From the NCBI GenBank assembly GCA_021234155.1, contig JAJEKV010000033.1, positions 8,114,635 to 8,178,634 of the forward strand: a DNA stretch of 64,000 nt, read 5' to 3'. Within the stretch, counting starts at the first letter, position 1; each line of letters starts with the position of its first letter. The translations under genes were made by a program, and so were the position numbers. The notes below the pieces were generated by a model. It was not told the origin of the DNA and did not search any database. It worked only from the letters and a program-made list of their open reading frames with translations. Shown piece by piece: positions 3,199-29,190 of this stretch. This DNA is from Isoetes taiwanensis. Taxonomy: Eukaryota; Streptophyta; Lycopodiopsida; Isoetales; Isoetaceae.

Positions 3199-3649
3199 TG
3201 TGACGCTCCCTAAATATATACGGCACTCTGGACGTATACATACGGGGACTTTCCCCTCCCAAGGCAACCATCTCAGACCATCTATGAAAGATGCCCGGGT
3301 GAAGGATACGGAGGTGTCATTCGGCCCACGCCTTCGATGGGACTCCTATGTCGCAGAAGCGTGAATACAAGTTAGCATACAACATGATCATATCATAAAT
3401 AACCACCACGAAGGGTGGCACATCCATCCAACAGATAATAACAGAGGACATACATTTAATACTAGAGAAAACTCCCCAAACCCAAGGTTCTACCCCGGCT
3501 CAGACTCCAGTGAGGTTTGACTGACGGCTAGGTCTCAGGAGAACAGCAGACAGAATCATGACATGGTGTTGGCTGGCATAGAACATCGGCTAGGGTTGTC
3601 CACTCCATCCGCCCCTCCTGTGCACACTTTCACTACTACAAAAATAGGT

Positions 3650-4090
3650 ATAAATGGCACAATTATGTGCCATTTTTCCCCTATATAAATGGCACTTTTT
3701 GGGTGTGCCATTTGTGCATATTTGTGCCGTAAATGCTCCGCCTTTTTTGTGCCATTTACGCGTGGTCAAAATATGTGCCATTTAATTGACATGTGTGTGC
3801 CATTTAAGTGACTTGTGATTGTGCCATTCATGTGCCATTTAAATGACATGCATTGTGCCACTTAAATGCCATTCAAGTGACATGCATTGTGACATGTATG
3901 TATGGTGCATGTGCCACTCAAGTGCCATAAGTATGACATATATGTGTAGTGCTTGTGCCACTAAAGCGCCATAAGTATGGCATGTATATATAGTGTTTGT
4001 GCCACTCAAGCGTCATTAATGTGGCATGCATATGCCATTCAAGTGCCATGAAAGTGTCGTGGTCATTGTGACATGAATGTGTGTAGTGAT
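3650..4090. repeat. Left sub-terminal repeat region of the CACTA element
   Basis: About 440 bp contain more than 20 copies, in both orientations, of short motifs built on GTGCCATTT / AAATGGCAC, often with GTGACATG between. In En/Spm such sub-terminal arrays bind the TNPA-type protein. The sequence to about 4290 is AT-rich with no gene. Confidence 0.75.
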
Positions 4091-4292
4091 TGCCATTTTC
4101 ATATTCTTTAAATAGCATTAGTTGTTTTATGGTTATGTGAACAATATTGAATAGTATTTCTATAAAGTGAAATACAATAACAAAATATTCAATAAAATGT
4201 CATGTCATGGATACAATAATAGCAAATAGAATGTCAAATGTTATGTGGGTACAATAATAGTAAATAGAATGTCATACACAAGGACCCAATGT

Positions 4293-10200: not shown

Positions 10201-11264
10201 CCTATTTGCTCATATCTGTTATGCTGTATGTCATTTGGCGGCATGCCTTTCGGCTCAGTGCATATGTTTCACACTGCTGAAAGTGCAGGTTGTGATGATT
10301 GCAGGTTGTGAAGACCGACAAGATTCTCTAACTTCTCAAGGTTTATCGCAGATCTTAAAGAAAAACAAGCTTATAAACTCAAATTCTTGGCTTGCATCCA
10401 AAATTATGAATCTTTGCTCAATCTAGAAGGCAAAACAAGCTAAAATGTCCACGTCTCATAATCTGAGACCTGATGTCATGTTAGAATTTTGGATTTAAGA
10501 GAGGGCACTAGAGGAGGAAAATGGAAAGAACTGTGATATGTCCGCATATACGGTTTTATATTCTGCCATTAGCGAGGCACAAGGTCTTAGTAAGATGACA
10601 TTCATCAACTACTGTACAAATCTATAAAACATTCTATTGAATCATGAAATCAAACAGCAAAAAAATTTAATTCAAGGAGAGGCATGTCACGAAGTAAACT
10701 AAGAAATATAAAATACCTCTTGGAAGACTTTGTAAATCCAGGTCTGCATCTCGTAAATCCAGGTCTGCATCTTGAGCATAATCTGTCAACAAGAACCATG
10801 TCCCTTTTAAAAGAAAAAAAAATTGCATAATCGATCACTGATAGCTTTAGACGTAGCAGAGAAAAAAATAAATGAGACTAAACTAGGTATCTATCGAATT
10901 AAAAACTTGCCAGAAATAGAAAGGCAAACAACTTACGAGCAGTATGACCGCCTGCATTTTTCCCATTTTGCCTAAAACTAGGATCTGATATGGGAATGCT
11001 CATTGTAATACTTCCATCCAAGATTTCCTGAGCTGATGGACGATGGTATGCTTCTATTCTCTTCCTAGTCATAATCTTCTTCTTCTTAATTAGCTTCTTT
11101 TTCTGCAAGATATGCCGTTTTGGAGCGGGAGATGATACTTCATCCTCAAGACTCTCCTCGTCTCCATCTTCACTGTTCGCACCTTCCCTCATTTGAAAAT
11201 CTTCATCTTCAGTGTCTTGTTCCGAGCCTGACGAATCCATACCCATTCCATCTTCTGAATCCAT
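4293..11264 (-). CDS. CACTA second gene (TNPA/Ptta-like, Transposase_24 plus DUF8039), 15 exons
   Basis: Splice sites and phases give this model on the minus strand: 11264-10937, 10782-10717, 7913-7821, 7637-7545, 6475-6198, 6061-5858, 5784-5692, 5622-5503, 5423-5230, four 45-bp microexons (5165-5121, 5045-5001, 4926-4882, 4809-4765), 4697-4632 and 4553-4293, about 658 aa. The N-terminus is acidic ([10 protein letters not shown]) then Lys-rich. Exons 5-8 match plant Ptta/En/Spm transposase ([51 protein letters not shown]). A Lys-rich coiled coil follows, and the last exon is DUF8039-like ([20 protein letters not shown], then WP). Exon 9 needs two 1-nt corrections, one in an A-run, so it is broken or misassembled. 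Expected role: binding sub-terminal repeats during excision. Confidence 0.75.
4765..5165 (-). repeat. Four tandem 45-bp phase-0 microexons
   Basis: Microexons at 5165-5121, 5045-5001, 4926-4882 and 4809-4765 are each exactly 45 bp, bounded by AG and GT, and encode [45 protein letters not shown] and [15 protein letters not shown]. The period is about 120 bp, and the introns between them also resemble one another, so exon plus intron was duplicated as a unit. All are phase 0, so any number could be included or skipped without changing frame. Confidence 0.8.
7545..7913 (-). repeat. Duplicated 93-bp exon (phase 1-1) in the CACTA second gene
   Basis: Exons 7913-7821 and 7637-7545 are both 93 bp and encode near-identical peptides: [18 protein letters not shown] and [18 protein letters not shown], followed by Gln/Gly-rich tails. 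Each begins after GGCAG and ends before GTCAGT. The symmetric phase lets the duplication keep the frame. Confidence 0.75.
8155..8625 (+). pseudogene. Captured coiled-coil-like gene fragment
   Basis: Within the large intron of the CACTA minus-strand gene, the plus strand shows coding-like heptad stretches: [17 protein letters not shown] at about 8170, [20 protein letters not shown] at about 8365 and [19 protein letters not shown] at about 8513. They sit in different frames with stops between. The parent gene is not recognised. I read this as degraded exons taken from a host gene, possibly together with the CSI1-like exon downstream. Confidence 0.35.
8855..9450 (+). pseudogene. CSI1: Captured CSI1-like armadillo-repeat exon (cellulose synthase-interactive)
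   Basis: A plus-strand exon begins after CCACAG (8854) and encodes armadillo repeats typical of cellulose synthase-interactive proteins, which link cellulose synthase complexes to cortical microtubules. Visible blocks: [78 protein letters not shown] and CIQPLVELL. There is an in-frame TGA at 8918-8920, and a 1-nt shift near 9112 is needed to read [14 protein letters not shown]. The fragment ends at TGA 9448-9450, far short of a roughly 2,000-residue family member. It is antisense inside an intron of the CACTA TNPA-like gene, so it is transposon-captured sequence. Confidence 0.75.
9451..10070 (+). pseudogene. Captured acidic-repeat fragment next to the CSI1-like exon
   Basis: A frame open to about 9880 continues past one stop to about 10060. 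It carries an imperfect repeat of about 37 residues built around AIEQ-x2-QD-x-S-x2-NKE-x-hydrophobic, seen three times (near 9735, 9820 and 9890). It is rich in Glu, Asp and Ser, with no known domain. It may be another piece of the gene that donated the armadillo exon, or a separate capture. Confidence 0.35.
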
Positions 11265-12395
11265 TTCGTGCACCTTCTCAGCACTTTCTCAGGTAGAGAG
11301 AGCTCAGGATCAAATGGATCGAGATCAAGAATCGAGAAGCATTGGGTTCGCGGGTACTATTTTCCCTCTTTTTTTTTCATCATTTTCATTTCCTTTGTTT
11401 TTTCGTATAATGAATGTTCTAGTTACAATAAAGGATTACTATTCCGTTCTTGATTTTATTGTTATCATATTTGTTACGAGTAATGGTCTATAAATAATTG
11501 CTACTTATTACTAATTTGAAAATATCTTGATGTGAACTTAAAGCCACTCATAAAACCTCTTCACATGTCTAATGGATTTTGTGACCATCCACAACTTTTA
11601 AAGAATATATCTAAAAAAAATTAAAGAAATTTACAGAAATTTATCGCGGCGGTGGCCGCCGCGAACATTTCTCTTGTCAGGGCTTTCAAAATCCCCTCAC
11701 GGTAATATTTCAATAATCAAGAACTATGGAACAATTAAATATGGATAGTCCTGGTGTTAAATCCAGGACGAATATATGGGGCACGTCTTTACCTTGAATG
11801 GAGTCATATAGTGTAATTATTTTATATTATGTAGATATAAGTCTAGGTAAAAACGTCTCAGATATACTGTGGTGTGAGATATGGAATTAATAGTAGTTAT
11901 TTATTACCATTGCCAAGAGCAGATCACAAAAATACCTAATATCTGTAGTAGTTCTCTGCAACAGATGAAGCTTGTGCTGCTTCTGTGCTCCAGCGACGGC
12001 GGTGCAATGTGCCATAGCCAGCAAGCTACTCCGGCGGCATAGCAACAACAGGACGCCCGCTTGTGCTTGCCAAGTCAGTCCTTTTTTTCTCTTTTTTCTT
12101 ATTTTTTTTAAAGCCTGATTTTTTCCTCAGAAAGGTACGTGCCAGTTTTAGGGGAAAGCATCAATCAAGAATATTCTAAAAGCATATTTGTAGGAAAATT
12201 ATATATATTAGAAAAGATGCACTTGCTTACATTTCCCTTTAGTGTGCAAAAATTGAAACATAATATCACACTAATAGACTTTGTATTTCCAAATATTTCT
12301 CTTGTAGAAAGTGGAAATAGGCACACTAATAGACCATGATGTTCCAGATGTTCCATCCCTTAGAGATGACTCATAACTTGTAGTTCCACCATATA
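11265..12395. other. CACTA intergenic region between divergent genes
   Basis: AT-rich spacer between the minus-strand TNPA-like gene (start 11264) and the plus-strand TNP2 gene (12396). It probably holds both promoters. I see no additional gene; the frame at 11212-11493 overlaps the first exon of the minus gene and is a shadow. Confidence 0.4.
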
Positions 12396-15300
12396 ATGCA
12401 TGTAATGCTAATTACCTATGACTTTTATGATAGGAAATTAACCTCTATGGATCATGTTGATGGTCCTAAAACGTTTGAAGAATTGAAGCGCCAAGCCATA
12501 AAAGATGGAGTTTCAGCTGTGGAGTGCCCATGTACAAAATGCAATGGAAACAAATTGAAGTCACTTGACGACATTCATCGTCATCTCAAATGTAATGGTT
12601 GGAGTCAACAATTAAAAGAGGTGAGAGAACCTTCAAATTTCCATATTTATCTTTTAGCACATGTTTAGTTTAAAATTACAACCATTGCAGGACACTAGAC
12701 GTAAAGATCTGATGTCTCAAACAATTCGGGACACCTTCATGGTAATTGATAGCGACTATGAAAGTCCATTACCTTTGGAAGGTGCTAGGGATCATTTTCC
12801 AAGTAGAAATATAAGTGAAAGTCCACTTATTGATGGAGATCGGATATGAGATGGAGATCGGGGTAGCTTGGATGGAGATCGGATAACGTGATGGAGATCC
12901 ATTATGTGATAACACTAGCGACCCATTAAAGCCATTATATGATGGAAGTTCATTGAACATGTTATCTGCCGTACTTTTGATTCTTGATCTGAAGACTATG
13001 CATGGATGGTCAAATTCTAGCCTTGATGATCTTCTAAAAGTTTTGGGAGGACAGTTGTTACCCAAAGGAAACTTATTGCCACGATCATCTTATTATGCAC
13101 AAAAATTGATGAAGGATCTTGGTCTGGAGTATGAATCTATCCATGCTTGCCCAAATGATTGTATTCTGTATAGAGGGGAGTATGCTAATCTTGAGTCTTG
13201 CCCTAATGAAAAATGCCAAGAAAGTCGATGGAGCAAAAAAGGCAAACCTAGTGCACGTAAAGTTGTGCGTTACTTCCCTGTCGTACCTCGACTACTGAAA
13301 CTATATGAATGTCCATCAATGGCAAGACATATGACATGGCATGCTAACAATGTAAGTAAAGATGGCATTTGCAGATATGTCTCTGATTCACCAGCATGGC
13401 AGCACATCAACAACATGTGGCCTGACTTTGTTGAAGATCCCCGCAACATTAGGTTTGGTTTGGCATTTGATGGCGTAAGCCCGTTTAGTGAGATGAGATC
13501 TAACTGGAGTACTTGGCCTGTTATGTTGGTAAATTACAATATTGAACCATGGTTAGCTACGAAGCCGCATTTTATTATGTTGATATTGTTGATTCCTGGA
13601 CCACAGCAAGTACCTTCTTCAAAAATTGATGTTTACATGAGTCTTATTGTGGAAGAGTTCCATAAGCTTTGGGAAGGAGTAAAAGCATTTGACTTCAGCA
13701 AGCCTACTTTGGAGAGGGAATTCACCTTGTGTTTAATGATCATGTGGACTATACATGACTTTCCTGCATATGGTTTGTTGGCAGGATGTGTAACCCATGG
13801 ATATCGAGCATGTCCCCACTGTGGACCTGATATTCATGTTCGCAAGTCTAGCAGTCTTAAAAAATTTATTTATGCAGGCCATCGCCGATATCTTCCCATT
13901 GATCACAATTTTCGGAGAATGAAAGTATTTGATGGGAAAATTGAATTTGGAACAGCCCCAAATCTTGTGGAACCTACTGATATACAAAATTGGATAATGG
14001 AAAAGGAAGAATGGGAGAGAAAGGAGTTGTCTCGAAAAGAATTGAAACAAAAAAAGAAACTTGATGATGCAGATGATGATCCAGTGAAAAGGACGGGGTG
14101 GAAACGCCTTTCAATATTTTATGAGCTTCCATATTGGGAGGTATGTCATGCTTGCATATGTATATATGTACTTAGTAACTTATGTCATTACGTGTACTTA
14201 TCTTATTTCATATTACATATTACAGCATCTTCTTATCCGAAACACACTAGATGTGATGCACGTGGAGAAAAATGTTGCAGAAAATATAGTTAAAACAATA
14301 CTTGGAGATGCTGACAAGGACAATGAAAAGGTAGAGAGGACATGAGAGAGATTGGAATTCGTGAGTCCCTCTGGTCTCAATCACAAAACGGTAAAGTTAT
14401 TTTACCTCATGCTCCGTATGTTCTTACAAAAAAGAAAAAAAAAGCTTTCTTTCTTTGTTATACAAAGTGTGAAACCTCCGACAGGATTGTCCTCTAACTT
14501 CAAAAGATGTGTTGCAAATGGAAAGCTCAAATCGATGAAATCACATGATTATCATATTCTTCTTCAGCAGTTCCTTCCTTTGGCTATACGTGATTGTCTA
14601 GGAGAAGGACTCAGTGCTTTGCTTAAGCAAATTACTGCAAAAGAGATTCATTTGAGTGAGATGAGTAACTTGAAGAGCGAAGCTGTGAATGTGTTATGCT
14701 TGCTTGAGAAGCATTTTTCGCCATCTTTTTTCACGATCATGACGCATCTCGTCATACATCTAGTAGAAGAGCTAGCTATTTGTGGGCCTGTGACTGCACG
14801 ATGGATGTATCCCATTGAGAGATTCTTAAAACATCTCAAGAAATATGTTCGCAACATGGCATATCCAGAGGGATCCATTGCTGAAGGATATATAATTAAT
14901 GAAGCAATTACTTTCACCACCATGAAGGAGGACAAAAATATCGAACTTTTAGGTGAATATGATGGTGTCTTGGACGTAACACGTCTGAGGTTTTGGAAGG
15001 CAAAGGAACTTTGATAAAGTTGGATGTATCATTGCGACAACAAGCACATGAATGCATTCTAGCAAATTCAACCATCATCAACACATGGAGATTGTAAGTA
15101 TTCAGTTTTATAATTTAGATTGATGTGCTTTAATGACAAAGTTAACTTTCAACCTGTTAATAACAGAAAATATGACCAATCACAACATGGTGTCTTTTCT
15201 GGGCGCAAGCGACCGAGGGAGCAGGTTATGAACTTTCCAGAGTGGCTTAAAATGGAAGTCCAGCGTATGGTTCAAAATGAGGAGCAAGTAGATCCATTGT

Positions 15301-15970
15301 TGCTTGACCTTGCTTTTGGAGTTGAAGAATATGCTACAAGTTATAAAAGCATGTGGGCATATGGTTGGCATTTACGAGTGCAAGACTTAGACGCAAAGCA
15401 AGTGACACAAGATTCAGGCATTTCTGCAATATTTCAATCTACGAGCCGTAGTAGTGCTAAAGACAAGCATCCAATTGAAGCTCACATAGAATATTTTGGC
15501 AAAATTCAACAGATTTTACAGGTTCTATTAGTACTTGTAAATATATTATTAATACTATAGTACATTTAATTGATAACACTAATTCTTTTTTCGTGGTTTT
15601 GTAGGTCTGTCTTGGTTCATCGCATGTGGTGCTTTTGCAATGCCATTGGTATAGGCCTGATATTATTGGACAACGAGCATCTACAAAATTTGACAAGTAT
15701 GGCTTTCAACTGGTGGACACTACAAAAGCTGCATATAAATCTAATTCAAGTTCTCAACCCTTTGTCTTTCCAGAACATGTCCAACAGGTAAAACTGCAAT
15801 TATAGTTTCTTACTTGCAATAATTTTTTTGTGAAATCGTCTGGTTAATCATTCAAATATATGCAGGTTTTCTATTTTGATGATCCACATAACGTAGGTTG
15901 GTCTATTGTGCTCCAAAACCCATCTCGTAGATGGGCTACTACTTACGATGAAAGTGAAAAAGTAACTTGA
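12396..15970 (+). pseudogene. TNP2-type CACTA transposase (Transpos_assoc, TNP2, DUF4218, DUF4216), frameshifted
   Basis: Exon 12396-12620 encodes the transposase-associated domain (ECPCTKCNGNKLKSLDDIHR). Exon 12693-14140 holds the TNP2 body (CPNDCILYRGEYANLESCP; GLLAGCVTHGYRACPHC). Exon 14225 onward has the NTLDVMHVEKNV motif and DUF4218 (LEKHFSPSFFTIMTHLVIHL; ICGPVTARWMYPIERF; EGSIAEGYI). Exons about 15169-15521, 15605-15787 and 15866-15970 give DUF4216 (STKFDKYGFQLVD; PEHVQQVFYFDDP) ending at TGA 15970. In a working element this is the DDE-type nuclease cutting at the CACTA ends. Frame breaks occur at the 12829-12910 repeats and near 14343, 14470 and 15005. Family order and length are normal, so it is a recently decayed full-length gene. 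Confidence 0.85.
12829..12910 (+). repeat. Four-copy short repeat that breaks the TNP2 frame
   Basis: GATGGAGATC recurs at 12832, 12850, 12871 and 12890, spaced 18-21 bp. The upstream frame ends at TGA inside the array, and the conserved DPLCDNTSDPLKPLYDGSS frame resumes after it. Uneven unit length explains the loss of frame. Confidence 0.6.
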
Positions 15971-16742
15971 TGACATACTTGTATTTCATAAATCTTGTCT
16001 TGTAATATATCTCTCTTTCATTTTTGTAGTTCACAAGTGCAATTTAATTCAATTTTACGGTTCTGACATTGTAATATGATAATGTATGATCTTATAAATT
16101 AAATAAGAAACAAAAGTGAAGTCTATGCTTCTACTTTTTCACTATAGCAATATTATAACACAATGAATGAGGAGTTTTATAGTTACACTTAAATAAAAAA
16201 TATAGATAGTTGCCCGTATGATTACATGGCACTTGTATATATGCCACTTGTATTGAACAAATGGCAAAAGTCCCACCACACTTTAATGGCAAATAGAAGT
16301 CACTTATACAAGTGTCATTTGTTCATCTGCAAATGGCACCAACAAGCAGCACTAACATGTCACTTGTTAGTTTGCCATTTACGTCGCTCAAAATGGCAAA
16401 ACATTGCCCACACTTAGATGGCACATTCAAGTCACTTAGACATGTGACGTTTATTGCAACACAAATGGCACAAATAGGCAGCACTTATGGGGCACTTACA
16501 TGACACTTATTAGTTTGCCATTTATGTAGGTAGAAATGGCAAAATATTGACCACACTTAAATGGCACATGCATGACACTAATCTATGTGCCATTTATAAG
16601 GCAAACAAATGGCAACATAACTGTCACTTAAATGGCACATACTTGTCACGTTTTGTTATGTGCCAATTACAATGATACAAATGGCAAATTCATGAAATTG
16701 TGCCATTTCTTCGTGCCATTTATGCACATTTTTGTAGTAGTG
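15971..16742. repeat. Right sub-terminal repeat region of the CACTA element
   Basis: From about 16225 to 16735 there are more than 20 AAATGGCA / TGCCATTT motifs in both orientations with CACTT and TGACACTTA variants, mirroring the left end. 15971-16224 is AT-rich 3' flank of the transposase gene with no feature seen. Confidence 0.75.
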
Positions 16743-16781
16743 TTTGCAGATGAGTTGAATCAAGCTATGGCATCATTGTAG

Positions 16782-16812
16782 AACCATCATTCAATTAAAT
16801 TGGGTTTATGTC
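16782..16812. repeat. Left terminal inverted repeat of the 12.4-kb element
   Basis: A 31-bp end beginning AACCATCAT, preceded by target duplication GTAG (16778-16781). It pairs with 29156-29186 with two mismatches; homology stops abruptly inward. Confidence 0.8.
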
Positions 16813-16981
16813 TTAATTTTGGGACAAATTTCATATTGCATGTTTTTAGTAGCATATTCAAATTCACACATTTCACCTCAAAATTATGAAAACGTAATAT
16901 CATGTTATTTACAAAATAGTCAATATTTCACAATATAGCACCATATCATAAAAACGTGATAACAAAAATTTACATAGTTAT

Positions 16982-19770
16982 TCAACTTTCTTCAAGCACC
17001 CCCAATAATATCATAGCCTTCTTCCTGACATCCTGAGGTATTGTAATTCTCGCATTTCTAGCTGGAATAGTGTTTGGAGTCCATGAGTACAAAACACTTT
17101 CATAGTCTAGCCAAAGATCGAGGATCACTTTCGGATTTCTCCTCCGTCTCTTTGTCCAACAACGAGTACCTTTCTTTATCCGATCACGTTGGTCAACCGA
17201 TGCTTTGGACACCACCATTCCACCCGCACATGGTTGAAGTTAATATTACCTTCTTCTTTGCAAATATCGGAGATAGTGAACCCCAACCACACTTTGGATA
17301 TGTATCTAAATCGATGGCTTTACTACCACAAATTGGTGGCATTACAAGTCGATTGGAAGGTTCATAAGCATCCATGCCTAGAAACTTTGGCCTATTGTTC
17401 TTAGGACCAACATAGTGTTTGTCGGAAGGAGGAGGAGCATATTGCTTGCGAATGCTACTTACGGTGTCATCAAAATCCTCAGCACTGCTAAGGTCTTCCA
17501 CCTAGTCTTAGGCAACCACCCTTCTTTCAATTCATCCGAGGATGTGTCTATCTCCCCAACGGGTTAATCACCTTCTTCCGGTAAGCCACCAAGGCACGGT
17601 TGGTGTCATCTGGATTGGTTTGCCAATGCTTTTATATAGTCTTGGATTCCTTCCTTAGTCAATCCCAATTGCTTCACTTCTTCAGTGGGTTTTAAAGCTT
17701 TTGGTTGACCTAGAGGTATCATAGGCTTGCCATTCTCATCTCTACGCCATATTTCCTCCCCTCCTCTCCACTCATCCTCCGAAGGTCTCATCTTCCATTG
17801 GAAGATTGGAATCCCATCTCTCACCCAAAAGTGAACTGCAGAGGCCTGGAATGACCTTCAAGATCCAATGTATAACCATCCACAAAGCTCTTCCAATCGG
17901 GCACTTCTTCTATGAGAGAAGCTATAGGGTTTGGAGTAGTGCATTCATGCAAGATTTCCATTAGCCTAGGAAAGTTGGTCCTTTGTTTCTTTGCCCAAGT
18001 ATACAACTATATTTGCCAAATAATGCATCCACATCCTCATGGGTATGCGGGCATAAGAAACCCTAAATTAACTCTTTCAAATATCCCCCAATTTGTTAAG
18101 TAGGATAGGAAAGAAAACATCCACCTGTTCTTATTTTGGCCAAAGCACAATTATCAAGTTGCAAGAGAAACCTTTTGGGTAGATCTTGAGGTTTAGCACG
18201 ATGAAGTTGAAGCTCCAACATGTTCATTAGACCCATGCTTCCTAAACCTTGCCTTTGCTGAACTTTTCAATATTGTTAGGGTTTCCATCTAACAATGCTC
18301 TATGTAGTGCACGGCTAGTCAGAAGGTCCCGGAGGTGACCATTGTATCCATTTTCATAGTTTCTCAAACACCTCATGATACTCCCAATATGAAAATCGGA
18401 CCATCACTCCACAACTCCAAACTAAAATGGCCATAGTAGGTTTGATTACGCCCATGCAAGATTGCCCTGATCATTGAGATCTGTAAAGGGTATGATCTTC
18501 CACATGACTTTGGTATGTACTTGAATTGTGGAAGACAAGTCTTTTGTTTGGTCCATCTTGTCATGTATAATACATAAATAGTTATTGGGTTCCAATGTAG
18601 ATAAAGTCCTCCACATCCAATAACATGATCTACATGATAGTTGGTCAGTCATATGGTCCTTCATATGCTCCCTTATCCTAGCCCTTTGACTAGGTTGCAC
18701 AGTCTTATCAAGAGTCTCCTTCAACTTAGCACATAAATTGCACTTTGCAAAGTTGTTTGAAGTTGCTATGGTGACATGATTGAAATGCTTCTTCCATAAC
18801 CTACTAAAGCTAGGTTGGGATATTGGAAGAATTCCCAATTCTCGAAGTAGGGAATTCACTTCTTCCAAAATACTCTTTTGAGTACAATGTGATGGCAACC
18901 TTTTCTCAACAAGCTGCTCTTCCCTTTTCATCCCTTCTCGCTTTTTGTGTGGCATAGACTGCATTGAAATCAATATATTTTTCAAATATCTCCCCGGCAG
19001 CCGGGGTCCTAGCCATTGGTCTCAACAAACCATTATTTCCATGTAAAGCAATCCTGTTCCCCCTGCACTGCTTTTTTTTTTGCCAATTATGCCATGAAGA
19101 AGTTGGAATTGCATGGATACTCGCCATGCTTTTGCACATATCCATTTGCCTAGCAAAGGGTATCTTTTTTCTGTTTGGGTTTCTTTCATCTTGAAGTGCA
19201 TGCTCGAAGATTGTGTACATGTAGGTCCTCCTCTCATCAACAGGTGTACTCTTGAAAAGTGGCTCTTGCTTCCACCAATTGTTCTATTGTGAAGAATTGC
19301 ATACAATCACTCAACAACAATCGAGCCCCTAACCTTCACCATTGTCTCACGTTTGGTGTCACTAATCAACTTGGCTCTTTCTGCTAGGATAATGTCGGCA
19401 ACCGATACTTCTCCCCTTTTGCCTAGGTTTAGAGTTCCAAGCGCCAATGGATCAATATCAAGACAATCATTGTCCCCAACAACCTCGGGCTCGGAAAAAT
19501 ATAATCCTCCACAAATTGAACACTACTTATAGGCCATGCCATGATGCAAGGAACCTCCAATTGCTTGACACAACCAAAACATTCCTTGTCACCCAAACCT
19601 TTACCTTTCAGGTTGTCTTCCAACATCGAAATTGCAATACCAATATTGTCTTCCCCTAGCCTTTCATCATTAATGGCTTGACCCGGGATCGCTAGCACAA
19701 TGACTCCTTGGCCTACTATTTCCTTGTTGCACTTGTGCATGATTCTCACCTTCTTGTTCCTCCATTGCAC
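16982..19770 (-). pseudogene. DUF7869-type (RNase H-like) transposase, multiply frameshifted
   Basis: Reading from 19770 down through several frames reconstructs one long protein-like path. A CxxC segment (FAKCNLCAKLKETLDK, about 18720-18770) precedes HDKMDQTKDL (about 18560), then ALHRALL (about 18300). QLDNCALAKI (about 18150) follows, then LGIFERVNLGFLMPAYPHED and VDALFGKY (about 18000-18060). The LDNC...H-E-D-x-D layout is what I know from DUF7869 proteins of seed-free plants and animals, with an RNase H-like core. A C-terminal tail runs to about 16982 (KKAMILLGVLEES). At least five frame changes separate the parts, so no intact protein is made. It is the only transposase-like gene in this element. 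Confidence 0.6.
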
Positions 19771-20155
19771 CCTACTATAGAGGACTAATTGTTTTTCTTC
19801 AACATTCTTGCTAGGAGTTGGTTTTCATTGATATTGCTCTTTTCACCATCTTGAGTTGGAGGGGCACCATTGACCTAGGCAAATTGCACCCTTTTTAGTC
19901 AATGAGTAAGAAAAATTATTACACCATAAGATAAAAAAAAACATTACATTTATGGAATATGTAGAGGTAAATCAAATTTTTTTAAAAGCAAGAAATTCCT
20001 TGGAAATAGGTTTAATATAATAATAACAATGGGCTTAAAACGAAATCATTTAAAACAAAATTTTCATGGCAACAACAAAGGAAATGACATTTATATAAAT
20101 ATAATTTTAACTATCGAAAATTTGGATATATGATTCTGAAAAGACATATAACTAA
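19771..20155. other. Spacer between transposase and first plus-strand unit
   Basis: AT-rich. It may contain the lost 5' end and promoter of the minus-strand transposase. Nothing else supported. Confidence 0.3.
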
Positions 20156-20310
20156 TAGGCGTGAGAATTTATTATCCATAATAATATACCCTAGACTAGA
20201 TAATATAGTGGGCGGAATTTAAATGCGCTGGCGTGTTATTTGAGGCAATAAATTATTCACGCTAAGAGCTAATTAACCCTATATAAATCCGGTTCACGCT
20301 CTCAAGACCT
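20156..20310 (+). promoter_or_regulatory. TATA-box promoter module 1 of the 12.4-kb element
   Basis: GGCGTGAGAATTTATT (from 20156), GCTGGCGTG (20228), TTATTCACGCTAA (20254), a TATATAAA box (20280-20287) and CACGCTCTCAAG occur in the same order as at 21385-21560. The first ATG lies about 60 bp after the TATA box. Confidence 0.5.
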
Positions 20311-20340
20311 CCATTACGTCCCAATTTTTTTTTTTACGCC

Positions 20341-20376
20341 ATGAAGGCGTTCGGTCTCTCATTTCGACCTTCATGA
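20341..20376 (+). promoter_or_regulatory. 11-codon uORF overlapping the next start codon
   Basis: ATG 20341 opens an 11-codon frame ending at TGA 20374-20376. This overlaps the next ATG (20373-20375) as ATGA, a layout suited to termination-reinitiation. Confidence 0.4.
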
Positions 20377-20744
20377 AGAACCCGAGGTCTCCTCAAAAGA
20401 GGCGTCGGGTTGAAGAACTCGCTCAATTCCCCATTGATTTTTTTTCCCAATTCTCCTCTCGATTGGGATTGAGGAGGATGATTGATTTCGTTATGGAAGA
20501 GGAGGAGTTGAGCTCCTCGATTCCCTCGATTGAAGAGGAGGAAGAGGAGGAAGAGGAGGAGTTGGAGGAAGAGGAGGAGATGTCCTCCCAAGAGCACATG
20601 ACCGCTCTGCTTGGGGTTGGCTTGACCGAAACAGAGAATGAAATCTCTGAGGAGGAGGAGGAGGAGGAGGAGGAGGAGGAGGAGGAGGAGGAGGAGGAGG
20701 ATTGGGAAGAAGGTCGACAATTGACCCGGTTTTGGAGTGGTTAA
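20373..20744 (+). CDS. Small acidic protein with poly-Glu tracts (123 aa), unrecognised
   Basis: The intact frame begins MKNPRSPQKRRRVEELAQF, where PQKRRR resembles a nuclear localisation signal. It has a short mixed segment, then two long Glu tracts (residues about 54-69 and 91-110) around EHMTALLGVGLTETENEIS, ending EEGRQLTRFWSG. It lies 86 bp downstream of a TATATAAA box in module 1. No domain is recognised. The GAG repeats (20530-20702) make length variation likely. It could be a chromatin-directed accessory protein of the element; that is inference. Confidence 0.5.
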   Translation: MKNPRSPQKRRRVEELAQFPIDFFSQFSSRLGLRRMIDFVMEEEELSSSIPSIEEEEEEEEEELEEEEEMSSQEHMTALLGVGLTETENEISEEEEEEEEEEEEEEEEEDWEEGRQLTRFWSG

Positions 20745-21384
20745 GAGATGAACCAGTTTGCATGTGATTTCTTTTTTGTTTTTGTTTTTGCACCTTTCTT
20801 TTCTTTTCTAACACCTTTCTTTCTTCTTTGTTGCAAAGTGGAAGAAGAGTGATGCGATCCCGGCGGCCCATTTTTGTTTCCATTCTTCTGAAGTTTTGGA
20901 CACGCCTCAGGGCATTTTTTTTTTGTCAGAATTGTGTGAAAAGCCTTTGGGCAACTGCTTCCAAGCCTTGGGCATCTGTACATACAACTGTTTTTAATGA
21001 AATCAAAGCAGTTTTCTTCATAAACTTTGTCTTCAAACAGTTTTTCTTCAAAAGCTTTTTTTACGTACATAAATTTTTTTGGATAAAATCAAATCTGTAT
21101 TCTCCAATTATTTTGGCTCCAAAATTTGTTTTCTCTAAAATTTTGTCTCTCTAGAATTTTGTATCTGCAAATTTTGTCTCAACAAAGTCTCGGGAACACT
21201 ATAAATCAACCACATGAGAAATCTCTGATTCGTCACAGTAACCATAGGAAATTTTCCTATACGACCTAAAACAATTCCCCAACCTTACAAGTCATTTTTA
21301 GCCTTCATAATTTTGCCTTTAAAATCATTTTTAATGTAGCCTATATAAAATTTCTAAATTCTATTTTTTCGAATGCAATAAATG
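20745..21384. other. 3' flank of the poly-Glu gene
   Basis: Pyrimidine-rich then AT-rich sequence without a supported gene. Frames here are broken or low-complexity (poly-Phe/Lys shadows). Confidence 0.3.
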
Positions 21385-21894
21385 GAATAAAATGCCGTGA
21401 GAATTTATTGCATGAAATGCAATATTCTCCATATATACCATATACATGTCATGTCTGGCGGGAAGACCGTACGCCAGGCGTGTTAATTCAAGCAATCAAT
21501 TATTCACGCTAACTTTTTTCTAATTGTGCCTATATAAATCCATTTTACGCTCTCAAAGTTCCTACATTTTCTTCCTTCCTTCATACGATTTGCCGGTTGC
21601 GCTTCTGCTGTGTTTGGATCCGCCAGTCGAAATCTTGGTGAGCAGATTTATATTCATCAATGTTAGATGTTTGGTTTCGGCAATTCCTAACTTACTAAAA
21701 GACTCCGCCTTTTGTTCTGTAGCATCTGTAGCAGAGGAAATCGGAGACTCAGAATTAAAACCAAAAGCAGAGGACTAAGGTCTGCGAATCGAAAAGCCTC
21801 GGAATTAAAACCACAAGCATAGTCCTCCGTTCTTCGAATCCTTCCAGCCTCAGAACTCAAGGTTAGTTTTCATTTAGTTTTAAGTTGCATCTCA
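21385..21894 (+). promoter_or_regulatory. TATA-box promoter module 2 with a spliced leader
   Basis: A diverged copy of module 1: CCGTGAGAATTTATTGC, the palindrome ACGCCAGGCGTG (21470-21481), TTATTCACGCTAA, TATATAAA (21531-21538) and ACGCTCTCAAAG. Downstream a GTGAGC donor (about 21638) and a TTCTGTAG acceptor (about 21723) suggest a leader intron. After it, a segment containing GAATTAAAACCA is repeated in tandem (about 21754 and 21810). Confidence 0.4.
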
Positions 21895-21987
21895 ATGGCA
21901 GGTTTAATCCAAGAAGACAAGCTTTTGCATTTGCTCGAGGCAGAGGAAGCAGATGATGTTTATGAAAACCAGAATAGTTTTTTATAA
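21895..21987 (+). CDS. Possible 30-aa ORF after module 2
   Basis: ATG 21895 to TAA 21987 encodes a 30-residue acidic amphipathic peptide (MAGLIQEDKLLHLLEAEEAD...). It is the first ATG after the presumed leader intron. No homology recognised; it may be the first exon of a larger decayed gene. Confidence 0.25.
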   Translation: MAGLIQEDKLLHLLEAEEADDVYENQNSFL

Positions 21988-22455
21988 ACTTCATCTGCTT
22001 CTTTTTGTTTCGAGTAAATTCTTGAGTTTCTCTTCCTGAATTAATCATGCTATTGCATGCAAGTTTCTATTATGAATAAGTGTAGTAGAAAGCATTAGAA
22101 AAATCTGAAAGATAATATTTGAAACACGCTAAAAGCGTGTTTTAGGGTAACCTTAGCCTTCAACATGAATATTTCGGCGTGCATTCAGCCAGGAGGGAGA
22201 AAAAAAACCCCGTATGCGGATAGATAAGTAAATAGATAAAGGCCATGCAATTATTTACCGCGGTTGGCTGAATGCAATGCCGCCCGGCGTGTATAGTTTT
22301 TCCTATATAGCGGTTTACCGCGGCGTGCAAACAATTGTATCCCTACTTTCAACTTTTCGCTAAACACGCGTGTCTCTTAGTTTCTAAGTTTATAAATAAA
22401 GAAATATAACACGCCCAGCGTGAATAATCGATCTTCGCTCACTTCCTATTGATAG
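21988..22455. other. Spacer with palindromes and third promoter
   Basis: Contains AACACGCTAAAAGCGTGTT (22121-22139), ACACGCGTGT and ACACGCCCAGCGTG motifs and a TATAAATA (about 22391), 65 bp before the next ATG. No gene. Confidence 0.4.
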
Positions 22456-23096
22456 ATGCCGGGTTACATTAATCACGGGTTGGTGACGAAGATGGATTGG
22501 AATTACATTTGGGCCAGCAATCACACGGCCCGGCTCGGTTTCGGCTCCAATCTCCATCCGGTTGAACCGGTAGAGCACCGATTCGGCTGGAGCACCGATC
22601 TTGCAACCCCGGAGTACTTGGATCAAGTAATGATGATGGCAGCAGAGCTTGAGGGCAATGATAGATCGGGCTCTGGGGGCCCTTGCAATCGCCGCGGAGG
22701 CTCGCCCTCTTATCTAATCACTTCGAGAATGCAAGTACATGCATTGATCGAGAGTGAATCGTGATCCGTCATCTCGAGATTCAAAATGAGGAGCTGCGTT
22801 TCTTAGTGGTTAGCCTCTATGCCCGGATGCCCCAACACGAACCACTACCACAGGCGGTATACGATGCAATGGAGATGGCTCAACCAATGGAACCACTACC
22901 GCAGGCGCTATACGATGCATTGGAGGTTCAACCAATGGAGCAGGCGGAGCAGGAGCAGGAGCAGGAGGAGGAGGTGGAGGTGGAGCAGGCGGGGGTGGTG
23001 GAGCTAGAGCCTGGTGTTTTTGCTGGGGTTTTACCAGAAGAATTCACTATGCCCTGCAATGGAAATGGGAGTATCGATAGCCCAGCTACTCAGTAG
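22456..23096 (+). pseudogene. Coiled-coil, Glu/Gln-rich protein with one frameshift
   Basis: Frame 22456-22764 (MPGYINHGLVTKMDWNYIW...) ends in ALIESES. The next frame picks up with IRHLEIQNEELRFLVVSLYA and runs to TAG 23096. The join reads as one coiled coil if a base is restored near 22761, so this is a single gene of about 214 codons with a 1-nt lesion or assembly error. The C-terminal half has a tandem EPLPQAxYDAxE repeat (two copies) and a Glu/Gln-rich tail. No known domain. Confidence 0.45.
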
Positions 23097-23203
23097 ACTG
23101 GGCTTGAAACAGTAGTCTGGGATTTTGTCTGGTTTATCCAGTTTATCCAGATTATATACAATTGTAATCTTTTTCCAATGAATACAACAAATTTTGTCTA
23201 CTT

Positions 23204-23461
23204 CTATATTTCTACAATGTAATACATGTTACATACCTTTTTTAAGCGGTTTCTTGGCCATGCAACAAATGTTCCAACACTTTCTCCAACCGTATCCCCA
23301 CCGGGGTGTCTGCGAGGTAAAGCTTCATCCATAGCGCAGCAGTTAATCACTGTAACTCGGACATACTTATCCCCGAGCGGAATTCCATGACAGTTTACAG
23401 TCGGATCGATGGAGTCGATCTTGCATAATCCTACTTTCCTTTTCTGATTTGTAGTTAACAT
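23204..23461 (-). CDS. DUF8039-like exon
   Basis: An intact minus-strand frame encodes NCHGIPLGDKYVRVTVINCC, then a Pro-rich turn and DTVGESVGTFVAWPRNRLKK. The order 'HG..LG, hydrophobic strand, tl..aVG.fVaWP' fits the DUF8039 domain common in plant transposon proteins and also present in the last exon of the CACTA second gene here. After KK the sequence GTATGT is a good donor, so the real exon probably ends near 23237. The rest of the gene is not found. The opposite orientation to its neighbours suggests a transferred or independent unit. Confidence 0.5.
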   Translation of the reverse strand: MLTTNQKRKVGLCKIDSIDPTVNCHGIPLGDKYVRVTVINCCAMDEALPRRHPGGDTVGESVGTFVAWPRNRLKKVCNMYYIVEI

Positions 23462-23930
23462 GAAACATTCATCTTCGAACGCAGAAAATTGCTATTCGAG
23501 ACACCTACTATTGGAAATTAATGTTCAAGCTATTGGAATGAGATGAGTACCGAATTCTCAGAGCCATTCTTGAGAAGCTGATTTGAGAAAAGAAGGCTAT
23601 GGAAACTCTGGCGGTCGGCGGAAAAATTCGAATTAGAAGAAAGATTAGGTTAACTACGTTTAGGCGGGATAAATTTGGCGGGATACTTTTTGGGTAGATT
23701 GGTTTTTAAAAACTTAATGAAAGAAGTCGACGGACGGGTCTTCGTCATTATTATTTGTATGTGTCAAGAATATTTCAAAACCTGCATTTTGTGTTTTCTT
23801 GAAATTCAAATTTCTATATTTCGTCTGGTAGAAAAAGCTATTTCTTCGAAAGCAGCTTCGAAAGGCCAGATCCGAAAGTGACCTTCCGACTCTGTTACTA
23901 GGCGACTCGGAGATGTCTTTTTAATCGAGG
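23462..23930. other. Spacer
   Basis: No gene supported; short frames on both strands do not agree with any model. It may hold the promoter of the DUF8039 gene. Confidence 0.3.
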
Positions 23931-26900
23931 TCGAGGCGGGGCAAGGTGAGGAAGCGGTGGAAGAGGAATCTCTAAACCCGGCTCTTCTCAAGTTTCGGGA
24001 GGACGTTGATCGTAGAAATACAGAATACAGAGAACCCTATTCAAGGTATTTAATTTGCCACGAATACACCTTCGTGTGGAGAGTATTATGCTTGCATGAA
24101 TTTGAGATATTTCCTTGCCTTTCAGATAATATGCTTTGCATGAGTTTGAGTTATTATGCTTTGCATGAATTTCAAGTATTAACATCGAGTTAATGCTCGA
24201 TTGTCCGCTCAGTAGAACATAATTTTGCTCGCTTTTTATATATAGAATATAGCGGTGTTAGGCAGGTTGGAGATAGCAATGTTCAATGAGGTTAAATAGT
24301 GTGAAATATGGATTCATGAAGGGTATGTAGCTTAAAATGTGGATGCAAAATAATTTAGTTTCAAATTAACGCATAGCATGGTCAATAATAGGAGATACCA
24401 ACACGCCATGGCGTGATTTGTACTAATTTAGGTTTAAATGCACGCCAAAGCGTGATCTCTTTGTTCGAAAAGTACTCTAAAAAGTGCTCATCTTCATTTT
24501 GCGATTGCTCAAGAGGAAGAAAACCCCTACTAATTCGGGTTCTAATCCCGCCAAGAAAGCAAGGGCGCAGCGACCCGGATGCGATTACCATATGATCTCA
24601 CCTTAGATGATGAAGGGCCGATTCTTATAGCAACCCCGACCCCCGCCTGCCCCGAAGAGGAAATGGGCGAGGGTGCCGAGTGGTACGTTGACCTTGCCAA
24701 GACAAATGGCAAGCTCGACTTAACTCTCTTCTCGAGAAAAAGGAAGCGGAACAAGATGGCCAAACAAGGGATCCTAATCTCTTGTGAGGAAGAGGATGAC
24801 ACCCACCGCAAATTGCTCTTGGAGATTACGAAGCGGAAGAAAGATGCGCTCGGACTTACTCACTGTAGAGCTCGCATACAAGGATACGTTCATGAAGACG
24901 GATGTGAGCGGTGAGACATGTTTTAAGTATGGTTGGCCAACCAATGTAGCAGATTACGCCAATATCTATTTGCCAAGGGGTTACGGTATGCGTAGAGGCA
25001 TGTTCACTAAACCCACACCAAGTCACTATTTGCAGCAGCAAGCTAGGGAATTAGCTGACTTGAAAGCTTCTAAAAGGGTCCTAGATCTAGGGAAGAATGT
25101 TCAACCGCAGCGGTTTGTCGAAGGCATGGAGGCTTCGTTTTTAGAATGAACAGACAGAGTGGCGCTGACTAGAGGCCATGAACAAAATTTGAATAAATCA
25201 CCGACCATTATCCATTGGGTCTTAAGGAAACTTTTGCGATCCATGTGAAGTCCCTCATCCGTTCACCAAGCTCCATTTATGTTACCGGAGATATGATCCG
25301 GCACATGCCATGGAGATTGTTGAGCATGATTAGTAATCCGGGTCAAATGCCTATATGCCACCGGATGTGCTACCTTGGGATATGATCTCGAACAAGCCTG
25401 CTTTGTGTGGAATAACGTCCGGGAGCTATTATCAAGTGATGATATTAAATATGTCATCATCGGACGGGCAAGATTCGTTGAGGCACAAAAGGCCATCATC
25501 GGCGAGGCCAGAACAAATGGGCCAAAAGTGTTCTACAATCACTATGCGTATAGGAGATGTCGTATCTTGGATGCCAATACTTCACCGCAGATTTATTTGA
25601 GATTAGTGCAACTTTGAATGAAATGGGGAAGACATTTCTATACAAAAGGTAATCAACTTTGGTTTCATAAATTGTATTCACGCCAGCGTGCTTTCAAATC
25701 AAACCAATTCACGCCAGGTGTTTTGAAATCAATCAATTCACGCCCGCGTGTTTTCAAGTCAACCAATTGATTTGAAAACACGCCTGGCGTGAATTCGATT
25801 GATTTGAAAACACGCTGGGCGGAATTGGTTTACATTTGAAAGCGCTGGCGGAATTGCATTAGTAACTTTTATTCATTTCACGCCAGCGGTGATTTTTCTC
25901 TTTATCAATTCTATTCAAATCGCCCGCGTGTTTCTATTCTATGATATTGATTCAATATACGTACTATTGCAGTCCATACGTTGAACAAGCTGCGCCACGC
26001 CCGTCAGCGATGGGTGGAATATGGCTGCCCATTGCCCACCGCATGTATGGTCAAAGTCCGAGGCATTCAAGGCTGCTGGAGCGGACTCGCCTCGTCGCTG
26101 GAACAATTATACGGGGAGAAGAAGAAGACTGCAAGAAAATCAAAGAAAAAGGTGGTGATGACATTGCGGATCCTTCCAAAGCTCATCCAAAGCGGTCGGG
26201 ACCAACGGACTTCGTATAAGATTGTGTTTTGTAAGGAGGCGGTATGGCTCAAGTGGAATGAATTCGGGGACGCTTTATGCACAAGGGAAGGCGCGGATAC
26301 TATGGGTAGGGTGCCTCCCTGTTGATGTAAGCATCTTTGACTTGAATGTGAGAGATGAGAAAGACTCGGGGGCTAGACGACGGCCGAGACCATTTGGGTT
26401 TTAGACCGTGCTTAAAGAAGGAAGTCTTATACAAGAAGGGTGCTTTCACCAAGGATAGGATGTCCTTCGTTGAGTCTTTATCATGATCATGTAAAGGATG
26501 TGCATTACAATGAAGTCATTTGTAGGAGCTGAGTTACAAAGGCTATCGGGGGATGTGGCATTATCTGGAAATTGGATTCTTTGGACAAATACAAGGTCAA
26601 GAATGATGACATCAAGAAGTTTGTATTCGGTCAAAGGACTTCCTAAAGAATTGGAAGGCTAAAAATACAAAACATAAGGAGACTCTACCCCCTAAGGTAC
26701 TTGGCTGAGTTGAGAAGAAAAGTGGCCCTTGTGAAGAAGATTCTTGGAGAAGACGACAATCATCCGAAGATTCGGTCTCCATTGGGTACAAAGGTCTCTT
26801 GCCGATTCAACTTCCGGCCTTAAAAATATATCACTCTTTGTGTTGGACAGCGAGGGGTGGGAGAGGAGATATGGGCATGAACCGGAAGGACTACTGTTAG

Positions 26901-28001
26901 CTTCTTTACCCGGTGTATAGGATTGACAACCGAGAGGTCCTTCACTATTGTCATCGTTTGTCCTTGGTGAGTCACATGCATGCACTATCTGGCTGCTCAT
27001 GATCTGGAGTGCCTCAAAGTTATTAGGGAGGGATGCCTAATATATGATGTTAAGGATAATGAGTCGCGAAACGTAGCGAGCGGAAGATGGCACATGTGAT
27101 CTTTATTATGATATCCATCTTTGTCGGGGACGAGGAATATGATATTGCTAAGGCCAAGGGTGACAATAGCGGTGCATGGGAATGTTTTCTTCTAGATGAT
27201 CGGACTTAAGGACTATATTCTTTCATATGGATCGGGATCGGTCGAAACAGGATGAGTCGAGAAGAGGATGAGGATGGGACCCCCTCCTAAGTGGGGAAAT
27301 CAAGTACGAGCTACAAACTAAGGAGAAGGGCCCCTTAAATAAAAATGGATTTCCCCCGTCTATGGCTGCTTACCTCGTCGAGGCATTTGCTCCAATTGAT
27401 ACAACCTGCTTGGAGCTTCATGTTGGAGGTTATATTGCCCGAGAGGCTCTTATGGGTGCAAGAAGATGTCACTTTGCTTTGTGAGTGATGAGCAGGCCAA
27501 AGACTTTCTTGAACCATTCCTCATGCATGTGCTTGCCAAGTCTCCTAAAGGCCCTTATGGCAACCTGAAATCATCAGCAATCAAAAGTCTCGTAGACTTG
27601 TCCAATTCGAAAGTGGACGTTGCTCCTGGAGAGGGAACTAGTAATCTGCAGCCTGATAAGGAAAGCAGTAATGAACAAATAGCTGCTAAACTGGTTGCTC
27701 AAAGTACTGTGATGGCGGCGAACTTAGGGAATATCCTTGCCCACATTGCGGGTGATGCAAGCAACAATAGAGTAGATTCACGAGGTTAACAATGAAATAA
27801 TTGACAGGGGAAACCGAAAATGAAGGCAACGGCGGCTCTAGTGATTCCTGGGTTTGCCAAATCAATAGTAAAATAATGTCGGGTTGTGAAGGACCAGTGG
27901 AACTAATAGAAAATAACAATTCTAACAAATGTAAGAAGGCGAAGATTAAGGGTGGCGGAGGGAGAATGGCCCGATGACCGCATTTGTGGCGAAGATGATA
28001 G
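23931..28001 (+). pseudogene. Long decayed cargo gene of the 12.4-kb element, methyltransferase-like C-terminus
   Basis: Coding-like stretches follow each other on the plus strand, in changing frames. An acidic exon (EEESLNPALLKFREDVDRR, donor near 24043) precedes LIATPTPACPEEEMGEGAEW (about 24630) and NVADYANIYLPRGYGMRRGM (about 24950). Then come FVWNNVRELLSSDDIKYVII (about 25400), an intron 25649-25972, and a basic block (GEKKKTARKSKKKV, about 26117). Finally GFPPSMAAYLVEAFAP is followed by CLELHVGGYIAREALMGARR (27342-27470). The last blocks resemble motif X and motif I (DxFxGxGT-like) at the C-terminus of beta-class DNA adenine/cytosine-N4 methyltransferases. No DPPY motif was found, so this is tentative. 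A final exon ending at 28001 splices in phase to the phosphatase exon at 28213, so both may be one gene. Confidence 0.4.
25679..25930. repeat. Array of eight CACGCC/GGCGTG palindromes inside an intron
   Basis: CACGCCAGCGTG (25679), CACGCCAGGTG (25710), CACGCCCGCGTG (25739), CACGCCTGGCGTG (25779), CACGCTGGGCGG (25811), GCGCTGGCGG (25842), CACGCCAGCGGTG (25879) and CGCCCGCGTG (25921) are spaced about 28-42 bp, most followed by TTTTCAAATCAA-type spacers. All lie in the intron 25649-25972. Several copies show 1-2-nt losses. Confidence 0.8.
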
Positions 28002-28212
28002 GTATGGCCTTGCCCACGAAATAGCGCCCGCAGCGTGATTTAATTTGTATTACCTTTGAATTAAATCGCCAAGCGTGCTTTGATTATTTTTCGTTGTCAA
28101 ACTAAATCACTTGTTGTGGCCGATTTGGTTATGACTATTTCAAATCACGCTTGGCGTTTGTATTGTTTGTGTTATCGTATCTTCTTGACCGGATACATGT
28201 TTGATGTTTCAG

Positions 28213-28849
28213 CTTCCATTGCGTTTCTAAGAAGGTTGTGGTGTTCGACCTAAACGGAGTCCTTTGCAAGACTTTTCAGAAAAATAAAGTGGCTAGAGAA
28301 CAGTTTCATCAGACACCAGTAGAATCAAACACCAAGTGGATCTATCCGCGGCCGCACTTGAAGGAGATGCTAGACGAGGCATTCAGGTTATTTCGAGTTG
28401 GTATTTGGTCATCCATGGAACTAAGGAACATCAAGGATACTTTGGAGGCACTGGGGGAAATGCGTAGAAATTGGTTGACCCTTTGGGATCAGAACAAATG
28501 TGTGAAGTTCACTAATCCCAAGGATCCAACAGGCAAGCCTATCTTCATCAAACACTTGAGTAACATGATGGACGAACTTGGTATCGAGAATAAGGATGAT
28601 ATAATCATAGTGGATGATGATGCTCTCAAATGCTTCTACAATCAAACACAGGCCCTGAATCCACCATCTTACGATCCAAAAAACTTTGGGACAGATGATT
28701 TTCTGGTGAAGTTTGTGTCTATTATGCATAATTTGGCTATGGGGATGACGGTGGGTGAAGTGTTAGATTCGTACCCAGAACTGGATAGAACGGCTGACAT
28801 GGAACCACACCTTGTTAAATACGTGGAAAAACATGGATTGATCCCTTAA
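28213..28849 (+). CDS. NIF/FCP1-type HAD phosphatase, last exon (intact, about 212 codons)
   Basis: After a TTTCAG acceptor (28212), the frame runs unbroken to TAA 28849. It shows HAD motif I as VVVFDLNGVLCKT, the FCP1/NIF signature YPRPHLKEMLDEAF followed by VGIWSS, and the late acidic motif IIVDDDALKC, ending LVKYVEKHGLIP. The first Asp of DxDx is kept, but the second is Asn (DLN), as in a common plant subgroup, so activity is uncertain. The exon joins in phase 2 with an upstream exon ending at 28001 (EWPDDRICGEDD). It is the one large intact frame in a decayed element. A second, broken member of the family lies at 33550-34164. Confidence 0.75.
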
Positions 28850-29155
28850 TGTTTTATTGGAATATATGATATTTTTGTATGATATTTGTGCCATGTATCG
28901 ATAATTTCGAGTCTGGAATTGCCTCGCAAATAATGCAATTTGTTATTATCAAACCTAATATTATCATCTATTGAGCAAGCAATATTTGTCTCATCTATGT
29001 TAGCAACTTGCTCTTCATTTTTGCATATTTCAATTCGCATATGAAAAGTCACACGTGAATCGCAACCTTATGTTATTTTTGAAGTAAAAAAAAAAAGATT
29101 AAAAAAAACAAAAACCCCCTAGAAGACAATAGCAGGTTGGCGTGATTTTGGAGTT
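28850..29155. other. 3' end of the element downstream of the phosphatase
   Basis: AT-rich 3' flank with A-runs and a single GGCGTG motif at about 29140 just inside the right terminal repeat. No gene. Confidence 0.4.
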
Positions 29156-29186
29156 GACATAATCCCAATTTAATTGGATGATGGTT
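29156..29186. repeat. Right terminal inverted repeat of the 12.4-kb element
   Basis: Reverse complement of 16782-16812 with two mismatches, followed by GTAG (29187-29190). LTR sequence resumes immediately after. Confidence 0.8.
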
Positions 29187-29190
29187 GTAG

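Follow-up and report, generated by a model that had tools for sequence, protein, structure and literature searches.

Among described DNA transposons, those of the Sola superfamily generate 4-bp target duplications, encode a DDD transposase, end in terminal inverted repeats (TIRs) of 11–1124 bp and in some cases exceed 15 kb (PMC10741241); in the sections of these reports drawn on here, they are recorded from some land plants, moss and Capsicum being the examples given (PMC10741241, PMC9033089). The brown alga Ectocarpus harbors a 21.5-kb member, Sola1-1_Ec32, in which the transposase and an accessory gene combining ParB and a DNA methyltransferase lie on opposite strands, and the transposase genes of the giant Ectocarpus elements often appear broken (PMC12477816). 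Here we analyze an element of about 12.4 kb (positions 16782–29186) within a 64,000-nucleotide stretch of the Isoetes taiwanensis genome (contig JAJEKV010000033.1, positions 8,114,635 to 8,178,634 of the forward strand), hereafter the window, which carries a frame-broken gene for a DUF7869 protein, the predicted transposase, together with several blocks of cargo. The element belongs to a repeated family of DNA transposons of approximately 12 kb with matched ends and varied 4-bp target duplications. Taking all the evidence together, we consider it very probable that this family, at about 12.4 kb per element, moves by a cut-and-paste reaction of the predicted DUF7869 transposase acting on its 31-bp ends with 4-bp duplications, and that its cargo would share control sites.

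The boundaries of the element are sharply defined. The left TIR (16782–16812, plus strand) and the right TIR (29156–29186, minus strand), each 31 bp long, agree at 29 of 31 bases, a second comparison of the inverted ends giving 34 nucleotides at 91%, and the termini read AACC...GGTT. A 29-base end pattern occurs twice in the window, in both cases exactly at the ends of the element, and is absent from 100 shuffled sequences. On both sides the TIRs are flanked by the tetranucleotide GTAG (16778–16781 and 29187–29190); because the right end closes in TT, the duplication in the window is also readable as the 6-bp TTGTAG. In six other copies the duplicated length is exactly 4 bp, and in a seventh GTAA stands on both sides.

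These copies were obtained by searching the assembly (1,658,258,908 bases in 1110 contigs) with the left 201 bases of the element, which yielded 1169 first-look candidates. The best 40 of these were scored and all are 100% identical over the 201 bp, a value that is biased upward and says nothing about the average copy, since the best candidates alone were scored. Ten of the 40 places were fetched for comparison of interior, right end and flanks. All ten extend into the interior of the element, with matches of 86.7–95.5% identity, and in seven the exact right end lies within the fetched stretch; these complete copies measure 12,267–12,856 bp and keep their interior in the same order. In these copies the two ends therefore do recur together, and the cargo is not peculiar to the window copy. 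The other duplications are CTTT, ATGA, GTGT, TTAT, CACT, AATT and GTAA, so that a duplication fixed at 4 bp is found in all eight copies with both flanks, window included. The three copies whose right end is missing from the stretch (G000:C918:1989652, G000:C919:9861868 and G000:C907:50675295) represent nested insertions or truncations. One of them holds an additional stretch of about 2.7 kb, located at element position 7.4 kb, which pushes the right end outside the fetched sequence, and in the other two the listed match halts at element positions 11,802 and 10,195; as the fetched sequence continues there for a further 1.1 and 1.8 kb, both are truncated or interrupted. The comparison bears out what a first-pass annotation of the window had proposed, namely a large DNA transposon bounded by 31-bp ends and a 4-bp duplication, whose contents are a transposase-like gene of the DUF7869 type and a cargo of several blocks.

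The DUF7869 region occupies positions 16985–19325 of the minus strand, where read-through pieces match the Pfam family PF25273 with an E-value of 1.7e-16. A home-made frameshift aligner matched 457 residues of the relative P0001 at 74%, passing 16 frameshifts and one stop, and the relative P0002 at 19325–17454 at 40%, passing 17 frameshifts. Candidate acidic residues are conserved, namely the first D in HDKMD, the second D in LQLDN and the third acidic residue in HTHEDxD. A structure model of the core displays a DDE-type strand order (predicted template modeling score 0.64, mean predicted local distance difference test (pLDDT) 58.9); comparison of this model with the PDB and with viral models by Foldseek returned nothing at E≤0.001, and no structural neighbor stands out. 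The model of the whole protein, with which Foldseek was also run, is too weak (mean pLDDT 46), and a sequence-profile search of the PDB with the DUF7869 protein gave 0 matches. Based on the conserved acidic residues and the modeled strand order, we infer that the DUF7869 protein would be the catalytic DDE/D enzyme of the element. Two queries against IMG/VR confirmed no DUF7869 relative, and two matches in GTDB contigs (L001 and L002), filed under "Bacteroidetes" metagenome-assembled genomes, are probably misbinned eukaryotic DNA or contamination. A search of the open-access literature, with subscription papers and Repbase outside its reach, found no paper containing the word DUF7869, which does not make the element undescribed.

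On the plus strand, the cargo begins with a poly-Glu protein frame (20373–20744) followed by a second acidic, Gln/Glu-rich protein in two overlapping frames (22456–23096); both were present as first annotated. Further blocks lie at 24546–25617, with broken frames, and at 26001–27790. For the two acidic proteins and for these two groups of blocks no family was found above cutoff in the window pieces, nor for most of them as consensus pieces. The last block (28205–28849) is an exon that is open in the window copy and resembles phosphatases of the NIF/FCP type, confirmed by PF03031 with an E-value of 2.2e-15 and 57.1 bits for a cutoff of 21.8. Two relatives, P0012 (54%) and P0013 (52%), match it with 66% of the query covered, and none was found in IMG/VR. 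In this enzyme group the first motif is usually DxD; as DLNG stands in its place here, phosphatase activity is doubtful. The exon has no lesion in the window copy, where about five were expected, and a selection acting on NIF alone was considered. This idea was dropped after 28 frameshifts and 4 stops were counted in the eight rows of the copy alignment covering at least 131 residues (two further rows cover 11 and 55 residues only).

Two other readings of the cargo fared less well. The first-pass annotation had described a methyltransferase-like C-terminus, corresponding to the 26.0–27.8 kb blocks. A profile of nine N6/N4 methylase sequences did not retrieve it, and 53% of shuffled sequences align as well; the profile search with consensus pieces gave no Pfam match in its favor, nothing rose above cutoff in Pfam, NCBIfam, PHROGs or PADLOC, no PDB match was meaningful, none of 3969 candidates qualified as a relative of the blocks at E≤0.001, and there was no phage match. 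The methyltransferase reading was accordingly abandoned. A ParB reading of the region 25.3–25.6 kb, made by eye only, found no family match on the frame-broken pieces, in scans that did not include a profile made from ParB relatives, and no plasmid match, and was likewise not retained. None was confirmed in IMG/VR. A lone phage tblastn match (E=0.8) falls, by eye, in an unrelated long multi-domain protein; the phage protein taken as ParB comparison is itself without a ParB domain.

The cargo region is marked by a short motif. Between 20159 and 29144 the element holds 35 CACGC/GCGTG motifs, counted without regard to strand, of which 33 form five clusters (20.16–20.30, 21.48–22.42, 24.40–24.45, 25.68–26.00 and 28.03–28.15 kb) and two are single (20901 and 29140). 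The number expected inside the element from 500 first-order random sequences is 8.5, the largest value being 21, as against 29 motifs observed and 25.5 expected in the remainder of the window, and no other 5-mer is as strongly enriched inside the element relative to the outside as CACGC/GCGTG. CACGC-GCGTG palindromes number seven in the window, and every one of them lies within the element. A tandem array of units of about 30 bp containing the palindrome is located at 25676–25841, between two cargo blocks; when this array is removed, 27 motifs remain for 8.3 expected (1000 random sequences, largest 18). In the window copy none of the 35 motifs falls in blocks assigned as coding. They precede the plus-strand blocks, with 4 motifs before the poly-Glu frame, 11 before the second acidic frame, 4 before the 24.5-kb block, 11 before the 26-kb block and 3 before the NIF exon. 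Across the copy alignment each row contains 28–43 motifs, and the consensus contains 39, mostly in the same places, with one (22524) falling in a presumed coding block.

A promoter-like module of 80 columns, a TATATAAA box flanked by a CACGC motif, is common to the two acidic genes and lies on the plus strand at 20230–20305 (module 1, with CACGC motifs around the box) and at 21477–21556 (module 2). The two modules align with a local score of 76, compared with at most 27 in 300 randomized pairs and 28 for the next place in the window, and three CTATATAAA boxes are found in all ten fetched copies. An Rfam scan of the window returned nothing. The position and sharing of these motifs and modules suggest that they may be common control sites.

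In sum, matched ends recur in other copies, the 4-bp duplications differ in sequence, and the interior, shared by the complete copies, has the DUF7869 region on one strand and several coding blocks facing it on the other. In the mechanism that we favor, the predicted DUF7869 transposase would cleave the element at its inverted 31-bp ends, and insertion would create the 4-bp target duplication. One factor, encoded by the element or by the host, would bind the CACGC palindromes that precede the plus-strand blocks and in this way control the cargo jointly.

The state of the reading frames bears on how this mechanism is to be understood. The ten rows of the alignment correspond to the window and nine copies, the one with about 2.7 kb of extra sequence being omitted. 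In the transposase part covered by P0001, these rows contain 145 frameshifts versus 4 stops, with 14–22 indel events per kb versus 3–11% substitutions. Neutral decay at that level of substitution would be expected to give more stops, so that either numerous indel errors affect the repeats in the assembly or indels occur with unusual frequency. We give roughly even odds to the former explanation, under which the family may be intact and active. The ratio of frameshifts to stops speaks for it, as does the ten-row consensus, in which frames become longer; against it, 8 frameshifts persist in the transposase part of that consensus, a frame of 468 residues is open in a nearby CACTA element, and the lesions show no clear preference for homopolymers (mean longest run 2.9 vs 2.7), for which reason a homopolymer cause was set aside. 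As frameshifts are abundant and stops rare, the label of pseudogene would be unsafe and we do not apply it to the DUF7869 gene. If the frameshifts are real, copies would be mobilized in trans by a copy with an open transposase frame, and none such was seen among the copies at hand. The same lesions, dense in the copies, could be taken to mean that the cargo consists of host fragments that were captured and ride along without function for the element, all the more as NIF is a common cellular family and the other blocks match no known one. We regard this as rather unlikely: the order of the interior is conserved across all seven complete copies, the blocks are preceded by motif clusters, and stops number only the four mentioned above in the transposase part of the ten rows.

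Two minus-strand pieces of the element may also belong to the transposase. The piece at 19429–19824 is a possible, weak N-terminal exon, ranking 2nd of 1595 window frames (E=1.3) with a profile built from residues 60–160 of relatives and 8th with a longer N-terminal profile; its BLASTP match to P0006 has an E-value of 0.21. The piece at 23204–23491 ranks 1st with the shorter profile (E=0.35) and 4th with the longer one, matches P0006 by BLASTP with an E-value of 0.028, and resembles weakly the Transposase_23 family (PF03017, E=0.003), at 17.7 bits for a cutoff of 21. Compared with one another, the two DUF8039-like pieces show no match (E=0.70). It is suggestive, no further, that both may be exons of the transposase instead of cargo. 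The DUF8039 exon of the first-pass annotation has no match of that name and is reduced to this below-cutoff resemblance to Transposase_23, and it may be the N-terminal region of the transposase itself; of the earlier interpretation as a whole, the transposon and its cargo stand, the methyltransferase does not and DUF8039 is suggestive only.

The surroundings of the element were also annotated. A CACTA element occupies positions 3631–16742, with inverted ends at 3631–3660 (3 mismatches) and 16713–16742, a Transposase_21 region (12887–14293), a DUF4218 region (14346–15014) and 143-bp repeats at 16349–16649; its right end is 39 bases away from the left end of the DUF7869 element. On the other side, an exon of a cytochrome P450 is found at 50780–51469 on the minus strand (PF00067, E=7.6e-59). 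Both neighbors point to a plant as host.

Through the present analysis DUF7869, a Pfam domain lacking an assigned function, is linked to a mobile element that has defined ends, is flanked by 4-bp duplications and exists in many copies, and thereby gains a role that can be tested. In a land plant host, where large multi-gene elements of this kind have been described as uncommon, the family would be an addition to them; that its passengers share control sites is a specific hypothesis that can be checked.

It remains to place this family among known superfamilies. EnSpm/CACTA elements have CACTA termini and 3-bp duplications. The family resembles them as a plant DNA transposon and in its weak Transposase_23-like exon, but differs in its AACC...GGTT ends and in its 4-bp duplication, on which grounds membership was rejected; Transposase_21 was found in the neighboring CACTA element and not in the scanned pieces of ours. 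Either the ends or the duplication length are unfit for Mutator, Mariner, hAT and Harbinger. According to the parts of the sources considered here, Kolobok and piggyBac share the 4-bp duplication but are specific for TTAA (PMC9587614), whereas the duplications listed above vary and none is TTAA; Ginger requires TG...CA termini (PMC10741241) where ours are AA...TT, and Zisupton (KDZ) requires a duplication of 8 bp (PMC12730594). These exclusions, the structure comparison in which no neighbor stands out and the open-access literature search would agree with DUF7869 elements forming a DDE/D transposon superfamily of their own that has yet to be named, a view that we hold to be doubtful, as all testable features of Sola fit. 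Still more improbable appears an extended version in which such a DUF7869 superfamily would possess a private gene-control network, an element-encoded DNA-binding protein reading the CACGC sites and the duplicated TATA module and switching the multi-gene cargo together in a virus-like manner, with movement by cut-and-paste.

The statement of the first-pass annotation that no named plant superfamily shows this combination is too strong, given the Sola elements of some plants. Within the portions of the Sola1–3 descriptions cited at the outset, the likeness extends to the 4-bp duplication, a TIR length within range, a compatible DDD-type pattern and the large size that is possible; the NIF cargo and the CACGC promoter motifs do not figure in them, and the likeness is one of described features. 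Whether the family is simply a Sola element of the Sola1 type, DUF7869 being the Pfam name of that transposase and the cargo ordinary, seems to us an evenly balanced matter. In its favor are the shared features with their occurrence in moss (PMC10741241) and the giant Ectocarpus Sola1 element with its accessory gene on the opposite strand (PMC12477816); against it, the Ectocarpus-type cargo of ParB and DNA methyltransferase is not confirmed in our element, the methylase tests being negative and no ParB family match having been found. As far as the cited part of its description goes, Sola1-1_Ec32 differs from our element in that cargo and in its length of 21.5 kb, and resembles it in being large, in carrying an accessory gene opposite to the transposase strand and in the broken look frequent among transposase genes of the giant Ectocarpus elements. 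This is the nearest described arrangement that we found, and the family would belong to, or adjoin, the Sola superfamily.

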